The notes under the pieces: model-generated
Database searches by the model: none
What the model was told of the DNA's origin: nothing
Seen by the model: only the letters and a program-made list of their open reading frames with translations
Position numbers and translations under genes: made by a program
From: Bacteroidota bacterium
Lineage (GTDB): Bacteria > Bacteroidota > Ignavibacteria > Kryptoniales > JAKASW01
Assembly (NCBI GenBank): GCA_021789975.1
Contig: JAJYIT010000008.1
Coordinates: forward strand, 1 to 64,000
Direction of reading: 5' to 3'
Length of the DNA: 64,000 nt
In this document: positions 2,277-56,941 of the stretch, piece after piece
How the letters are laid out: every line of letters starts with the position of its first letter
Numbering within the stretch: position 1 is the first letter of the stretch

Positions 2277-2301
2277 GGCGGCAAAAGGATGAATGGAGTG
2301 G

Positions 2302-2368
2302 TGGAATAATGGAATGCTGGAATATCAGAATATTGGGAGAGTGGGAATTCCATCCTTCCATCATTCCA
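2302..2368. repeat. 22-bp inverted repeat belonging to a dispersed repeat family
   Basis: Arms 2302-2323 and 2347-2368 match at 19 of 22 positions when one is reverse-complemented, around a 23-bp loop. It lies between the convergent SDR and GH18 genes, so it could act as a transcript end. The left arm is not unique: 20 bases (2303-2322) recur exactly at 55914-55933, and 15 bases (2301-2315) recur at 12934-12948. Confidence 0.75.
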
Positions 2369-2376
2369 GCCTTCCC

Positions 2377-3459
2377 CTATTTTATCCGGGCAGTTTTCGC
2401 CTCTTTCTGCAGGACGTTCCAGATGCCGGGGTCTTCATCCCCAAGGACCCATACCGATATACCGAGCAGGTTGTGTTTCTTCGCTACGTCGAATTTAGGC
2501 GCAAATGATTTTGTATCCTCCATGAAGAGCCAGTTGAAAACTCCGCCTTCTTCCCAGTACGCGTAGTTCACCTGCTGACTTTCCATCCACCTTTCCTTCA
2601 CACCGAACTCATCGAGCAAGTCTCTCGCCCCGCGATAGCTAATTTCAATGTGAGTAGAACGTGCGCCCCCCTTCGGCTCCCATGTGGGAAACCAGTAGCC
2701 GCTGTAATCAGGTATTCCAAGCGATATTTTGTTTGCCGGAATGCCGATCTTCAATAGGTAATTCAACATACGTTTGAACCATGGCATCCCCGCTACAGGT
2801 CCCGGCGGCGTAAGACTCGTGTGCTCGTCATAGGTCATGAATGAAATGAAATCGCTTGCGCTGGCTATCGCCGGAATGTCGAAAGCGCCGAAGTCATTCT
2901 CATACAAATAACGCGCGAATGCCGGATTCCCGGACTCAGGTGCAGGCTGGTCTGATTTAACTATGGCCATTGAAATTTTGAGACCGTATTTGTGGAGTGA
3001 ATCTGCGGCTTGAGTGTAGAATGATGTGTATCCATCGCGGTCACGGAGATTCATGTTCTCTATGTCGAATTGCCAGCCGTAGTAGTCGAACTTTTCGGCA
3101 TAGAAAATCATCAACCGTATGGCTTCTTCCCTGGCCGTCGGATTGCCAAACAATTCATGTTCATCTTTTTGATTGAAGGTGGCAACAAGCGGCATCACCT
3201 TCACACCTTTTTCCTTGGCAAGTCTCAGAACTCGCGGATCGACAAATCCGGTGATCACTCCCATTCCATCAATATGGTACACCGCTGGACAAATTATCGA
3301 TATCTGGTCGGCATGCTCCACAAATTCATTGTAACTCTGTGGGTCGCCGAGCATATAGAATAGATTCTCTGAGATATATTCCTGAGCCTGAGCAGCTGAA
3401 AAAGACAACCCAATGAATGTGAGGGCGACAGCGAAATAAAATCTTGTCCTTGAAACCAT
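2377..3459 (-). CDS. Secreted glycoside hydrolase family 18-like protein
   Basis: About 360 residues from the ATG at 3459, chosen because CAGGAG lies just upstream and the protein then opens with a proper signal peptide (MVSRTRFYFAVALTFIGL, cut after AQA). The rest is a GH18 TIM barrel like the YaaH/chitinase group: the strand-4 signature reads GWQFDIEN with D132 and E134 in the catalytic D-x-E positions, and FMTYDEH and IPDYSGYWF match later strands. Known members cut beta-1,4-linked amino sugars in chitin or peptidoglycan. The usual DGxDxDxE is reduced to D-x-E here, which is common in the family, so the substrate is uncertain. It probably acts in the periplasm or outside the cell. Confidence 0.85.
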   Translation of the reverse strand: MVSRTRFYFAVALTFIGLSFSAAQAQEYISENLFYMLGDPQSYNEFVEHADQISIICPAVYHIDGMGVITGFVDPRVLRLAKEKGVKVMPLVATFNQKDEHELFGNPTAREEAIRLMIFYAEKFDYYGWQFDIENMNLRDRDGYTSFYTQAADSLHKYGLKISMAIVKSDQPAPESGNPAFARYLYENDFGAFDIPAIASASDFISFMTYDEHTSLTPPGPVAGMPWFKRMLNYLLKIGIPANKISLGIPDYSGYWFPTWEPKGGARSTHIEISYRGARDLLDEFGVKERWMESQQVNYAYWEEGGVFNWLFMEDTKSFAPKFDVAKKHNLLGISVWVLGDEDPGIWNVLQKEAKTARIK

Positions 3460-3612: not shown

Positions 3613-4977
3613 TTACAGTTCTCTCCATGCGCCGTTAGACCCTTCGGCATCTTCAAGCGGTATTCGGTTGCCGTCCTGATCGACGAAAGTGATCATCGCC
3701 TCACCCATCATTTGCCGCAACGTATTCTTTAATTTTACCGACTGGATAAAAAGATCATGCTCCGGCACGCTTTCAGGCGAGTGAATCGGACTCTTGAAGT
3801 AAAAAGACAGCCATTCCTGAATCCCGCTTCTGTGCGCCCTTTGAGCGAGGTCCGTAAGCAGCACAAGATCAAGTACAATCGGGGCAGCGAGAATCGAGTC
3901 ACGGCAAAGAAAATCTATTTTCAACTGCATCGGGTAGTTCATCCAGCCGAAGATGTCTATGTTGTCCCATCCTTCCTTGTTATCCCCGCGAGGAGGATAA
4001 TAGTTGATTCTGACTTTGTGATAATAGTCATGGTACAGGTCGGGGTACAACTCGGGCTGAAGGATTGAATCGAGGACCGAAAGTTTGCTTTCCTCTTTTG
4101 TCTTGAACGACTCGGGATCGTCCAGGACCTCACCGTCGCGGTTACCGAGGATGTTGCTCGAGAACCATCCGCTGAGACCCAGCATTCTCGCCTTCAACAT
4201 CGGAGCTATGACTGTCTTGATTAGCGTCTGTCCGGTTTTGAAGTCCTTGCCTGATATCGGAACTCCATTCTTCTCAGCCAGCTCGACGATCGCTGGAATG
4301 TCGTTCGTCAGATTAGGAGCACCGTTGATGTAGGGAACTCCCTCCGAAATTGCTGCCCAGGCATAAAGCATGCTTGGTGATATGTGCTCGTCGTTGTTCT
4401 TCATGCCGGCTTCGAACGATTCGATTGACAAGTGCACATCTTCAACAGACAGGAAGATTTCAGTACTGCCGCACCATATCATTACCAGGCGGTCAACTTT
4501 TTTCTCCACTTTGAAGCGGCGAATATCGTCTCTCAGTTGTTCCATCAAATCGTATTTGGTATTCGCCTTTTTCACATAGTCGCCGTGCAACCGTACGACG
4601 AACCGCTGCTCAAAAACTCCGGGCATCGGGTGAATCGCCTGCAATTCCTGTTTCACCTTTTCCAGATCCGGTGTGTCCACAACCTTAGCGTATGCCGCGG
4701 CTTCGTAGGCGTTCTCGTTCCTGATGTCCCAGCCACCGAATTCCAGTTGAGACAATTCTGCAAGCGGGACAAAATCCTTTATCAGTGGAAAGTTGTTCTC
4801 TGCTCGTTTCCCAATTCTGATTGTTCCCATCTGCGTCATTGAACCGATCGGCTTTGCGATGCCCTTTCTTATAGCGAATGTCCCTGCTAGAAAAGTCGTT
4901 GCAACAGCCCCATCAAGTCCAACGATCAAGACTCCTAATTTGCCTTTTGAATCATCAATACCGTTTACCGATTTCAT
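3613..4977 (-). CDS. ino1: Inositol-3-phosphate synthase
   Basis: 454 residues, the long form of myo-inositol-1-phosphate synthase. It turns glucose 6-phosphate into 1L-myo-inositol 1-phosphate with bound NAD+ and feeds inositol lipids. The N-terminus has the Rossmann loop (VLIVGLDGAVATTF, 16-29). The family core is visible in LVMIWCGSTE, NGAPNLTNDIP, SGKDFKTGQT and NILGNRDGEVL. The lipid-substrate helix region FLCRDSILAAPIVLDL is also present. Its ATG follows an AAAGGTG ribosome-binding site. A phospholipid-related flippase-like gene lies next to it, and pgsA/pgpA lie 40 kb away. Confidence 0.95.
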   Translation of the reverse strand: MKSVNGIDDSKGKLGVLIVGLDGAVATTFLAGTFAIRKGIAKPIGSMTQMGTIRIGKRAENNFPLIKDFVPLAELSQLEFGGWDIRNENAYEAAAYAKVVDTPDLEKVKQELQAIHPMPGVFEQRFVVRLHGDYVKKANTKYDLMEQLRDDIRRFKVEKKVDRLVMIWCGSTEIFLSVEDVHLSIESFEAGMKNNDEHISPSMLYAWAAISEGVPYINGAPNLTNDIPAIVELAEKNGVPISGKDFKTGQTLIKTVIAPMLKARMLGLSGWFSSNILGNRDGEVLDDPESFKTKEESKLSVLDSILQPELYPDLYHDYYHKVRINYYPPRGDNKEGWDNIDIFGWMNYPMQLKIDFLCRDSILAAPIVLDLVLLTDLAQRAHRSGIQEWLSFYFKSPIHSPESVPEHDLFIQSVKLKNTLRQMMGEAMITFVDQDGNRIPLEDAEGSNGAWREL

Positions 4978-11964: not shown

Positions 11965-13008
11965 CTAGCGCGTAAGTATTGTGGCATCAGCCGGCAATCC
12001 GGCTTTCAAATATCCTTCGCGATTCGAAATCTCGATCTTAACAGCAAAAACAAGCTTGACCCGATCTTCTTTGGTCTCGACATTCTTCGGAGTGAACTCA
12101 GCTGTCGGTGAGATGTAGACTACCCTGCCTGAAAACGAATGGTTCGGCATTCCATCCAGGACTACATCCGCACTGTCTCCCAGCCTTATTCTGGCAAGAT
12201 CGACTTCCGTAACGTACACCGTTATTTTCATTCTCTTGAGGTTGGAGATTGTATAAACGGGAGTTCCTATGTTAGCGAAGTCGCCGACTTCCTGAAGTTT
12301 GTCAAGTATAGTTCCGCTGAATGGACAAATGACATAGGAATGCTCGAAGTTTATCGTGGCATTATCGAAGGCTGCCTGTGCTTGTTCAACCTGGGCGGCC
12401 GCGCTCCGTATTTCTTCCGGCCTTGCGTAGTGCCTCAGCTTTTCGAGCGTTTGCTGAGCGGAAGCCAGTTGCGCAGATGCTACAGTAAACTGCGCCTGAG
12501 CTGCATCCATTTGTGACTGCGAAACGCTGTGTTCGCCGAACAGATTCTTTGTCCTGTCGTAGGCCAGTTTTGCAAGCTCGAAATTTGCCTGTGCTTGTTT
12601 GACGCCCTCCTCACCGACCTTGAGGTCTTCGCTTCGAGCCCCCTTCACCAGAAGATCATACTGCTGCTTCGCCATCACGAATGCAGCATGGGCCTGGTTG
12701 ACCTGTTGTGCAAGAGAGCGATGATCGATCTCAGCCAAAGTGTCGCCCTTCAGTGTATTTGATCCCTCTTCGAAATTCATGGATATGATTCGCCCGGGTA
12801 CCTGTGCCGCTATTGAGCTTTCCGTGGCTTCAATCGTTCCGATTGCAGTCACCTCATTTTTGTTAGAGGAAGAAGAGCAGCCGGACAGGATCAAAAGAGA
12901 AGCAAGAAGCAGGAATAATGGGATAGCGGAGTAGTGGAATAATGGAATATTGGATTGATGGACCAGCCGCCGATAGCTGATGGCTGATAGCTGATAGCTT
13001 TTGTTCAT
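11965..13008 (-). CDS. HlyD-family periplasmic adaptor lipoprotein, YbhG-like
   Basis: 347 residues: a lipobox (LLILSGC, Cys about 44), lipoyl half (VPGRIISMNFEEGSNTLKGDTLAEID), a long coiled-coil hairpin (about 95-215, rich in Ala, Gln and Glu), the second lipoyl half (VICPFSGTILDKLQEVGDFA) and a beta-barrel end. It links the inner-membrane exporter to TolC. Its ATG overlaps the tetR stop (ATGA). The signal region is unusually long because the first 34 or so codons are made of dispersed repeat sequence (see 12905-13000), giving residues such as YQLSAISYRRLV before the hydrophobic core. Confidence 0.9.
   Translation of the reverse strand: MNKSYQLSAISYRRLVHQSNIPLFHYSAIPLFLLLASLLILSGCSSSSNKNEVTAIGTIEATESSIAAQVPGRIISMNFEEGSNTLKGDTLAEIDHRSLAQQVNQAHAAFVMAKQQYDLLVKGARSEDLKVGEEGVKQAQANFELAKLAYDRTKNLFGEHSVSQSQMDAAQAQFTVASAQLASAQQTLEKLRHYARPEEIRSAAAQVEQAQAAFDNATINFEHSYVICPFSGTILDKLQEVGDFANIGTPVYTISNLKRMKITVYVTEVDLARIRLGDSADVVLDGMPNHSFSGRVVYISPTAEFTPKNVETKEDRVKLVFAVKIEISNREGYLKAGLPADATILTR
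12905..13000. repeat. Dispersed repeat sequence forming the 5' end of the adaptor gene
   Basis: Two repeat types lie side by side. 12934-12948 is an exact 15-base copy of 2301-2315. 12972-13000 is a run of the unit GCTGATAG or GCTGATGG in tandem, whose 12-base core at 12982-12993 recurs at 35284-35295 inside wecB, and a 13-base piece recurs in inverted form between recX and recA. The reading frame of the adaptor stays open through both. Confidence 0.75.
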
Positions 13009-34645: not shown

Positions 34646-34751
34646 AATCAGGACACGGATTGCCGCGGATGAAACTTATTCCTACGGATGATTCAGTGGT
34701 CATATTCCAAAAAATCCGTGAAAATCCGTTTGATCGGTGAAAATCAGTGTT
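34646..34751. repeat. Repeat-like intergenic sequence with internal AAAATCCGT units
   Basis: A stretch with repeated pieces: AAAATCCGTG and AAAATCCGTT next to each other (34711-34730), then GGTGAAAATCAGTG (34736-34749), plus the related ACGGAT units at 34655-34660 and 34684-34689. It runs into the end of wecB so that the last codons (Glu-His-stop) are part of it. It looks like a decayed dispersed repeat. Confidence 0.45.
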
Positions 34752-35865
34752 CAAATGTTTTGGCATCAACTAGAATTCTTGCAATCCTCTCGGCAGCCTT
34801 CCCGTCCCACAGGTCCGGCACTCTGCTCTTCTTCCATTCACCGGCATAGCATTTCTCAACTAAGTCAATGACTTTTTCTGACGATAGGCCCGTGAGCACG
34901 TTCGTTCCCAGTTCGAGTGTAATCGGCCGCTCTGTGTTCTCGCGCATCGTTATGCAGGGTACATCCAGGAACGTCGACTCCTCCTGAATTCCGCCGGAGT
35001 CTGTAAGTATCACTCTTGCATCCATCATCAGGTTGAGGAAGTCGAGGTAGCCCAGTGGGTCAGTCAGCACCAGGTTCTTCACCTCCGCAAAATGCGACGA
35101 TAGACCGAATTCTTCAATACGTTTCCTCGTCCTTGGATGAACGGGGAAAATTATCGGCCCGTGCTTTTCGGTAGCCTGGAAAATCTTCAGAATGGTTTGA
35201 AGATTCCCCTTTTCGTCAACATTACTCGGACGGTGTAGCGTCACAAGCGTGTAAGACCGGGGGAGCAGCCTATCTCCACTTGTGGCTGATAGCTGTTGTC
35301 TAATAGCTGACAGCTTTGCTTTCTCTTTGTAAAGCGCCAGCGAATCTACCATGACGTCGCCCACAAGAAACACTTTCTCGTCTGCAATTCCTTCATGCTT
35401 CAGGTTTACCACGCCGCTTTCCTCTGTGACGAACAGGTAGTCACTGAGAACATCGGTGACCATCCGGTTGATCTCTTCCGGCATGGTACGGTCGAAACTC
35501 CGCAGACCTGCTTCCACATGAGCCACGGGTATCCAGAGCTTCGCAGAAGTCAGGCTGCACGCAACGGTCGAGTTAACATCGCCGACGACGATGACCAGGT
35601 CGGGCTTCTCGCGCACCAGCACTTTCTCGAATTCGACCATGACCTTGGCAGTTTGCTCCGCATGAGTGCCGGAACCAACGCCAAGGTAAACGTCCGGCTT
35701 CGGCAGCTCAAGGTCGTCGAAAAAGACTTTCGACATGTTTGCATCGTAATGCTGGCCGGTGTGAACGATCATGTGCTGCACCGAACTGTACTTTCCGAAG
35801 GCACGATGCAGCGGAGCGACCTTCATGAAATTAGGACGAGCACCGACGACACTGATTATCTTCAA
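34744..35865 (-). CDS. wecB: UDP-N-acetylglucosamine 2-epimerase (non-hydrolysing)
   Basis: About 373 residues from a TTG at 35865, which gives the standard opening MKIISVVGARPNFMK; an ATG at 35892 would add nine residues. Conserved pieces: HTGQHYDANMS, GSGTHAEQTA, VVGDVNST, AHVEAGLRS, PEEINR, LTDSGGIQEE. The enzyme interconverts UDP-GlcNAc and UDP-ManNAc. Near residues 185-200 the loop before LVTLHRPSNVD carries KLSAIRQQLSATSG, encoded by the same GCTGATAG-type repeat found in the adaptor gene. Confidence 0.93.
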   Translation of the reverse strand: MKIISVVGARPNFMKVAPLHRAFGKYSSVQHMIVHTGQHYDANMSKVFFDDLELPKPDVYLGVGSGTHAEQTAKVMVEFEKVLVREKPDLVIVVGDVNSTVACSLTSAKLWIPVAHVEAGLRSFDRTMPEEINRMVTDVLSDYLFVTEESGVVNLKHEGIADEKVFLVGDVMVDSLALYKEKAKLSAIRQQLSATSGDRLLPRSYTLVTLHRPSNVDEKGNLQTILKIFQATEKHGPIIFPVHPRTRKRIEEFGLSSHFAEVKNLVLTDPLGYLDFLNLMMDARVILTDSGGIQEESTFLDVPCITMRENTERPITLELGTNVLTGLSSEKVIDLVEKCYAGEWKKSRVPDLWDGKAAERIARILVDAKTFEH

Positions 35866-35902
35866 TCCTTCAATCCTGAAATTTCTGAGCATTCATGTGT
35901 AA

Positions 35903-40964: not shown

Positions 40965-41090
40965 TGTTGGCTCATAGCTCGTAGTTACAGGCCCGGTACG
41001 ACGATTCCGGAAGTTCATAGGATTTAATTTCTATCAGCCATCAACTATGAGCAAGCTGCTACTTACTTCTTACTTTTTGCTTCCTGCTTT
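40965..41090. repeat. Dispersed repeat sequence between recX and recA
   Basis: Contains GGCTCATAGCTCGTAG (from 40970) and an inverted piece around 41031-41045 that carries 13 bases matching the GCTGATGG/GCTGATAG repeat of 12972-13000. It continues as AAGAAGTAAGTAGCAGC-like sequence into the last codons of recA. Confidence 0.55.
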
Positions 41091-55904: not shown

Positions 55905-56941
55905 TCGACAAAGGGAATAATGGAATGCTGGAAGGATGGAACGATTTGGGAAATAACAGGAGAAAATACTTACCCGACTTCAATTGGAGCATTCAAAGAT
56001 CGGCTGGAATCATCTTTCTAATCGCCTTCATCAGTTTATTTTCCACCGTTTCGTTTGCCCAGAGCTACCCCGGGAGCTTCGCGAGGGTAGGTCTTAACGC
56101 CAAAGGGATGGCACTCGGTAATTCAATATCTGCAATGACGGAGGGCAACGTCTACACTTACTACAACCCGGCACTTGCGTCGTTTCAAAACGACGGCAGC
56201 ATTGCTGCTTCCGTCGCCCTAATGTCGCTCGGAAGACAGTTGAATGTGCTTACATACACTCAAGGACTAAAGCCGACGGCGGGACTTTCGTTGGGAGTTA
56301 TAAATGCGACCGTGTCAAACATCGACGGCAGAGATGCAGACGGTGTACATACGACGGACCTCTCAACCAGCGAGAACCTGGTCTACCTTTCTTTTGCCAA
56401 TCAATTTACTCCAGGGCTGTCTGTCGGCCTGAGCCTGAAGCTCTATTATTATAGTCTTTACTCCGGAATCAGTTCCACATCCATCGGCTTTGACCTCGGC
56501 GGAGTATACCAATTGACACAGCACTTGTCTGTCGGAGTTGTCGCGACAGATCTCGGTGAGAGTTATCATTGGGACTCATCGAGTCTTTACGGCACCAGCG
56601 GGTCGAATTTTATTACAAACTTCCCACACATCTACAAGATCGGTGCTGCATACAACTTCCCGGCACTTCACTCTTCCCTTACAGCCGAGTACGACATCGG
56701 ACCGGCATCTCTGGGCGGACTCAGGGCCGGAGTCGAGTATGCACCGTTCGACATGCTGGCACTCCGCGCGGGAGTTGCATCCGGAAACGAGAGTTACGTC
56801 GGGACCAAGGTGTGGCCCTCCTTCGGTTTCGCAGCCAAGATTGCATTCCTGGATTTCACCCCCGAACTTAACTACGCTTATACCTCGGAGCCGTTTACTC
56901 CGTACGGAATACAAACTCTATCATTAATATTTGGATTTTGA
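55901..56941 (+). CDS. PorV/PorQ-family outer-membrane protein
   Basis: 346 residues from the ATG at 55901 that overlaps the previous stop (ATGA). The N-terminus is odd: about 40 residues (GNNGMLEGWNDLGNN...) precede the signal core (GIIFLIAFISLFSTVSFA-Q), and 20 bases of that region are an exact copy of the dispersed repeat at 2303-2322. The mature part has the family opening RVGLNAKGMALGNSISAMTEG, YYNPALAS, and barrel strands, ending in LSLIFGF. PorV shuttles T9SS cargo to the cell-surface attachment complex; the role of this paralog is inferred. Confidence 0.88.
   Translation: MIDKGNNGMLEGWNDLGNNRRKYLPDFNWSIQRSAGIIFLIAFISLFSTVSFAQSYPGSFARVGLNAKGMALGNSISAMTEGNVYTYYNPALASFQNDGSIAASVALMSLGRQLNVLTYTQGLKPTAGLSLGVINATVSNIDGRDADGVHTTDLSTSENLVYLSFANQFTPGLSVGLSLKLYYYSLYSGISSTSIGFDLGGVYQLTQHLSVGVVATDLGESYHWDSSSLYGTSGSNFITNFPHIYKIGAAYNFPALHSSLTAEYDIGPASLGGLRAGVEYAPFDMLALRAGVASGNESYVGTKVWPSFGFAAKIAFLDFTPELNYAYTSEPFTPYGIQTLSLIFGF

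Follow-up and report, generated by a model that had tools for sequence, protein, structure and literature searches.

The HlyD-family adaptor lipoprotein encoded in the DNA described here opens with codons that also read as tandem repeats dispersed over the same genome, which raises the question of how such repeats become part of a protein, and of its export signal in particular, with the reading frame kept. A preliminary description had derived the first 34 codons of the adaptor from two repeat types, had placed further copies in wecB, at the end of recA and at the N-terminus of a PorV-like protein, and had likened them all to the in-frame palindromic elements of Rickettsia. All the copies that it named were recovered as arrays where it had placed them. 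The arrays are real, polymorphic among congeners and mostly non-coding, and they add DNA that has no counterpart in the empty orthologues; as judged from sequence alignment, in-frame copies lengthen WecB, the isoleucyl-tRNA synthetase (IleRS), the PorV-like protein and the signal peptide of the adaptor.

Sequences and searches

The window, i.e. the whole 64,000-nt stretch that was analysed (G000:C27:1-64000), belongs to a genome (G000) of 4.70 Mb in 85 contigs, the nearest named relatives of which are metagenome-derived genomes of the Bacteroidetes/Ignavibacteria type. Arrays were first located by pattern search (for the heptamer, 18 bases with at most three mismatches, the control being the reversed pattern) and then rescored with cyclic profiles. 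Since these were trained on the pattern matches themselves, profile and matches are not independent, and the array counts are lower bounds. Counts were obtained from genome-wide pattern searches and from a profile scan of 568 kb, mostly sequence around pattern matches, and gene boundaries are those of home-made gene calls. Six Markov-simulated windows of the same size served as the null for the arrays of the window. The congener comparison covered 13 species of the genus, with one genome per species, and orthologues were compared for the in-gene arrays of WecB, IleRS, the PorV-like protein and the adaptor.

Two families of degenerate arrays

Two degenerate tandem families were distinguished, a heptamer, TAGCTGA (also read GCTGATA), and an octamer, TGGAATNN. 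With the cyclic profiles, seven arrays of at least 26 bits were found in the window (table 1), three of them heptamer (30.7-47.1 bits) and four octamer (37.6-56.6 bits), and none in the six Markov windows. Over the whole genome the heptamer pattern has 58 matches against four in the reversed control and the octamer pattern 90 against two, and the scanned 568 kb hold 46 octamer arrays of at least 22 bits against none in the reversed sequence. The genome totals of approximately 50 octamer and approximately 20 heptamer arrays, besides 23 heptamer matches that correspond to a T9SS sorting-domain motif, bear out the earlier description of the repeats as dispersed. A GGA core is present in approximately 94-95% of the octamer units, two positions of which are nearly free; the number of units per octamer array has its mode at four, and at least four GG at a spacing of 7-9 nt are found in 30 of 39 arrays.

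The window, with 1.4% of the genome sequence, contains 12 of the 90 matches to the octamer pattern, a density about 10 times that of the genome. Across the 13 species the abundances of the two families are independent of each other (rho 0.14), and congener G008 has nearly no octamers (four matches, with five in the control) and 70 matches to the heptamer pattern. Positions 12898-12912 hinted at a third heptamer family, GGAAGCAG, which was rejected because it did not clearly exceed the control in the scanned loci (five matches against three) and was borderline in the window.

Table 1. Arrays and array-bearing genes of the window (positions are those of the window).
Feature	Position	Strand	Score or basis
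Octamer array TGGAATNN, left arm of convergent inverted pair; begins 16 nt past the SDR stop	2292..2348	+	50.8 bits
Octamer array, right arm of convergent pair; extends to the GH18 stop	2347..2381	minus	37.6 bits
HlyD-family adaptor lipoprotein	11965..13008	minus	Pfam; start-codon check
Octamer array, antisense within the adaptor signal peptide (SNIPLFHYSAIPLF)	12912..12962	+	56.6 bits; codon map
Heptamer array (TAGCTGA), antisense = adaptor codons 4-12 (SYQLSAISY)	12969..12999	+	47.1 bits; codon map
wecB, UDP-GlcNAc 2-epimerase with insert	34744..35892	minus	Pfam, PDB homologues
Heptamer array, antisense in frame in wecB	35279..35315	+	32.5 bits; orthologue alignment
Weak inverted heptamer partner, recA-recX spacer	40970..40984	+	17.1 bits
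Heptamer array directly 3' of recA	41031..41061	minus	30.7 bits
Octamer array, sense = PorV-like codons 5-15 (GNNGMLEGWND)	55914..55945	+	39.0 bits

Placement, orientation and reading frame

Called genes contain seven of the 42 octamer arrays of at least 26 bits, a strong depletion given that 0.87 of the sequence is coding (p 1e-24). Of the 35 non-genic ones, 28 have a gene boundary no more than 25 nt from their 5' side and three from their 3' side (p 2e-6), and gene 3' ends make up 22 of the 28 boundaries on the 5' side. Octamers adjoin a gene on their own 5' side and are directed into the spacer. A partner on the opposite strand within 200 nt accompanies 18 of 50 octamer arrays against four of 110 in the control, nearly always in convergent orientation, and the arms of such pairs match no better than random arrays. 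One of these pairs, the right arm of which had been missed in the preliminary description, fills the SDR-GH18 spacer of the window, and in G009 an octamer array likewise begins 8 nt past the SDR stop. The copy noted at the end of recA is present and begins immediately after the recA stop; the inverted heptamer pair of the recA-recX spacer folds at z −3.3 and adds length in only two of the 13 species (G000 and G005).

Antisense arrays of both families leave on average 2.36 of the three frames open, whereas the corresponding values are 0.36 for sense heptamers and 1.31 for sense octamers. With antisense arrays nearly free of stops, the frame can be kept without a special mechanism, and purifying selection would be enough. 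In four genes it is a sense array that supplies the stop, directly after LEGSVG in a SufB/D-like protein, GIME in an AcrB-type protein, and DGKME and NGVME. The proposal of a family inserting at gene ends and loops without breaking the frame stands insofar as in-frame copies do occur in ends and loops, but insertions within genes are a minority.

Array-coded segments in proteins

The N-terminal repeat region of the adaptor reads MNKSYQLSAISYRRLVHQSNIPLFHYSAIPLFLLLASLLILSGC, with codons 17-32 formed by octamer units; both repeat types are present as proposed, but approximately 25 of the 34 codons are repeat rather than all of them. The ATG at 13008 overlaps the tetR stop, and none of the in-frame starts after it leaves a signal peptide without arrays, the next in-frame start codon falling within the hydrophobic core. 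Among 11 orthologues, only that of G000 carries arrays in the signal peptide, the other 10 having array-free signal peptides (e.g. MKRYVVLFAFAFLLAGC). The position of arrays within this operon changes from one species to another: heptamer arrays are found at the junction of the adaptor stop with the next gene in three species of two clades (L314 in G002, L317 in G004 and L323 in G011), and the junction array is absent in others.

In WecB the array, read antisense, translates in frame, as described earlier, into KLSAIRQQLSA and accounts for extra length with respect to the congeners that lack it. The heptamer segment is found in five of the 13 congeners (G000, G005, G002, G007 and G004), where it adds six residues (15 in G004), and is missing from the WecB of the remaining eight and of more distant relatives. 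It is placed between the end of the REKAK helix and YTLVTLHRPSNVD, and in a confident structure model (mean pLDDT 89.6) it is predicted to form a helix-loop ahead of strand 215-218. In G004 wecB (L083) an additional palindrome-like piece, TTCCCGCAAACGGGA, lies between the heptamer units of the insert.

An octamer insert is carried by the IleRS of six of the 13 congeners (G000, G005, G004, G011, G010 and G012) at one site after GSVEELR; it measures 36 nt in five of these species and 39 nt in the sixth. Six others lack it, and G006 carries another segment. Since AlphaFold gave only a poor model of IleRS (mean pLDDT 33.8), an alignment with solved structures was used instead, in which the best homologues lack the insert and the extra residues are evident. 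The inserts are scattered across the species tree, a patchiness that requires multiple losses, more than one gain or an exchange of alleles, and the likeness of units 2 and 3 across species would favour common descent.

The octamer extension of the PorV-like protein is found in two of the 13 species, G000 and, with different octamer units, G005, and in the 11 other congeners the protein begins directly at the signal peptide. Here too the predicted N-terminal unit was found, and for all four proteins the sister species include orthologues without the insert, in keeping with the earlier proposal. The 20-base match between 2303-2322 and 55914-55933, to which the preliminary description had drawn attention, is exact, but it is no evidence of copying since matches of this kind are expected between octamer arrays: two consecutive identical units are common to two array pairs, against 0.8 in the null.

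Besides the adaptor, array-coded N-termini are found in L157, a likely lipoprotein (SLLHYSIIPLFLLSLSSC), and in L148, with an array at the signal peptide, and further array-bearing proteins are a COX3-like protein, an F5/8 C protein, L135 and L120. In L135 a long octamer array (3626-3698, minus strand) covers much of a 97-codon ORF, which may be a spurious gene or a gene built from the array.

Heptamer matches in sorting domains

The profile-based count of in-gene copies that had been called for was run, but it overstates insertions, since most in-gene heptamer matches are sorting domains: 23 of 43 heptamer arrays of at least 23 bits correspond to the T9SS C-terminal sorting-domain motif, and the other 20 do not. 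The genes concerned differ greatly in length; their matches mostly lie approximately 180 nt upstream of the stop and translate as NPFNPTT-ISYQLSA-xSxVTLKVYDVLG. The type IX secretion C-terminal domain (TIGR04183, 151 matches in the genome) has an ISYQLSA motif that matches the heptamer read antisense; unlike the inserted arrays, it is a protein domain without inserted length, and its heptamer matches bring no added length here. Heptamer codons are used by only some of 27 sorting domains chosen by protein score, with a bias (CTA for 5 of 18 Leu, p 0.003; TCA for 7 of 10 Ser, p 0.0002; paralogues, hence not independent) that is suggestive. A subset (e.g. L115, L143 and L144) has ISYQLSA in heptamer codons directly after NPFNPTT. 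The sorting-domain motif and the heptamer family could have a common origin.

Comparison with known repeat arrays

Direct repeats of the heptamer TAACTGA have been described in marine Beggiatoaceae, Cyanobacteria and five Bacteroidetes (MacGregor 2015, PMC4679880). They were searched as exact units and are mostly intergenic, mostly just upstream of start codons, with some in ORFs, mostly near protein ends, and some overlapping stop codons; the reverse is open and reads LSVISYQ, whereas the forward direction gives stops, and single-base variants, TAGCTGA included, hardly form arrays in the genome of that study. The heptamer found here differs by one base, its reverse peptide being LSAISYQ, and shares the asymmetry between an open reverse and a forward direction with stops. 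It differs in its degenerate units and mixed positions, and in that congener orthologues without the in-frame insert have been identified. A search of the literature for exactly this heptamer gave no match.

The octamers resemble the (GGGANTN)n arrays of Xanthomonas (GGGAATC; GGGGA(T/C)T in Nostoc), which have a mode of four units, an intergenic placement in 89-93% of cases (PMC4692102), many convergent pairs and a greater proximity to the 5' neighbouring gene (28 versus 160 nt). Degeneracy, G-richness, the four-unit mode, the mostly intergenic placement, the convergent pairs and the proximity to the 5' gene are common to both, but the period is 8 with GG here and 7 with GGG there, in a different phylum, and the sections consulted do not describe in-frame loops or signal peptides with empty orthologues.

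The palindromic elements of Rickettsia are units of approximately 150 bp, in families with a conserved peptide (reviewed in PMC10969869). The arrays share with them dispersal, in-frame presence in unrelated genes and absence from orthologues (WecB, IleRS, PorV-like protein and adaptor). However, no conserved unit of approximately 100-150 bp is common to the copies, which have only a 7-8-base consensus, so that the proposed likeness fails beyond in-frame insertion. Short repeat arrays of this kind are already known elsewhere; what is added here is evidence at the level of species that they have inserted into particular enzymes and into signal peptides.

Origin of the arrays

The account that we regard as probable is that insertions at the edges of genes, and now and then inside them, have built up the two degenerate families in the genus, with the frame kept by a sieve. 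Some process would insert arrays at gene edges and sometimes in genes. An antisense array of fitting length in a surface loop or at an N-terminus would then be tolerated, as stops are rare in all its frames, and the antisense octamer peptide, (FHYSIIPL)n, may be hydrophobic enough to serve within a signal peptide. Sense heptamers and many sense octamers would be confined to gene 3' ends, where they might supply the stop. Insertion followed by a selective sieve seems the most economical account; against it stand the patchy distribution of the IleRS inserts on the species tree and the fact that neither a donor copy nor a target duplication nor a mobilising enzyme was found.

A different reading, kept as a live alternative and given appreciable though limited weight, is that selection maintains the arrays at gene ends as functional sites (protein-bound RNA or DNA, or two-tier quadruplexes), with the in-gene copies as by-products. 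The GGA core with its two nearly free positions, the regular GG spacing and the strict polarity relative to the gene edge speak for it, as do the same polarity and four-unit mode of the Xanthomonas arrays (PMC4692102). However, the arrays are patchy among species even next to the same gene, G008 is essentially without octamers, and a T-run within 40 nt was found at none of 39 arrays, which rules out a role as intrinsic terminators. It appears unlikely that a transposase mobilises the arrays as miniature palindromic elements of the MITE, REP or RPE type. The convergent inverted pairs of the arrays, their presence or absence among congeners and the stability of some folds (z −5.2 for L157, z −4.3 for L146) would fit, and the number of Y1 transposases follows that of heptamer matches (rho 0.67, p 0.01, n=13, sorting-domain matches being mixed in). 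Octamer matches do not follow it (rho 0.08), which speaks against Y1 transposase as the octamer driver, and G003 has none of these transposases yet 73 octamer matches. Comparison of array flanks revealed no recurrent sequence, the copies having no more in common than a consensus of 7 or 8 bases; no runs of three identical units common to different arrays were found, and the arms are not specifically complementary.

Local microsatellites, generated by replication slippage and unrelated among sites, would likewise be tandem, of short period, mostly intergenic and variable among species, but this origin is quite improbable, given that dozens of sites have the same consensus and that adjacent units resemble each other no more than they resemble those of other arrays (likeness 4.78 against a null of 4.80 for the heptamer; 5.23 against 5.10 for the octamer, p 0.07, and p 0.40 at the NN positions). 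The dissimilar neighbouring units, the lack of three-unit runs, the non-complementary arms and the flanks without recurrent sequence argue together against both slippage and the recent copying of one element. That the likeness within proteins reflects convergence at the protein level is very hard to reconcile with the WecB, IleRS, PorV-like and adaptor segments, which are added length at unrelated sites and match the intergenic consensus in DNA, although it probably holds for most in-gene heptamer matches, i.e. those of sorting domains, where length is unchanged and heptamer codons are used only in part. Equally remote is the idea that every unit is drawn independently from a single degenerate template, by a synthesis at gene edges resembling that of telomerase or diversity-generating retroelements; if true, it would account for one consensus at many sites with neither slippage nor copying.

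Concluding remarks

A common anatomy links the dispersed heptamer and octamer arrays of Xanthomonas, of Beggiatoaceae and Cyanobacteria, and of the present Bacteroidota-related genus, with the caution that profile searches for such repeats also pick up T9SS sorting domains. The independence of the units makes the origin of the arrays testable with strain-level data. For the genus itself, insertion and sieving of arrays would leave, in the comparison of its species, a record of short repeats turned into components of export signals and of enzymes that are essential.
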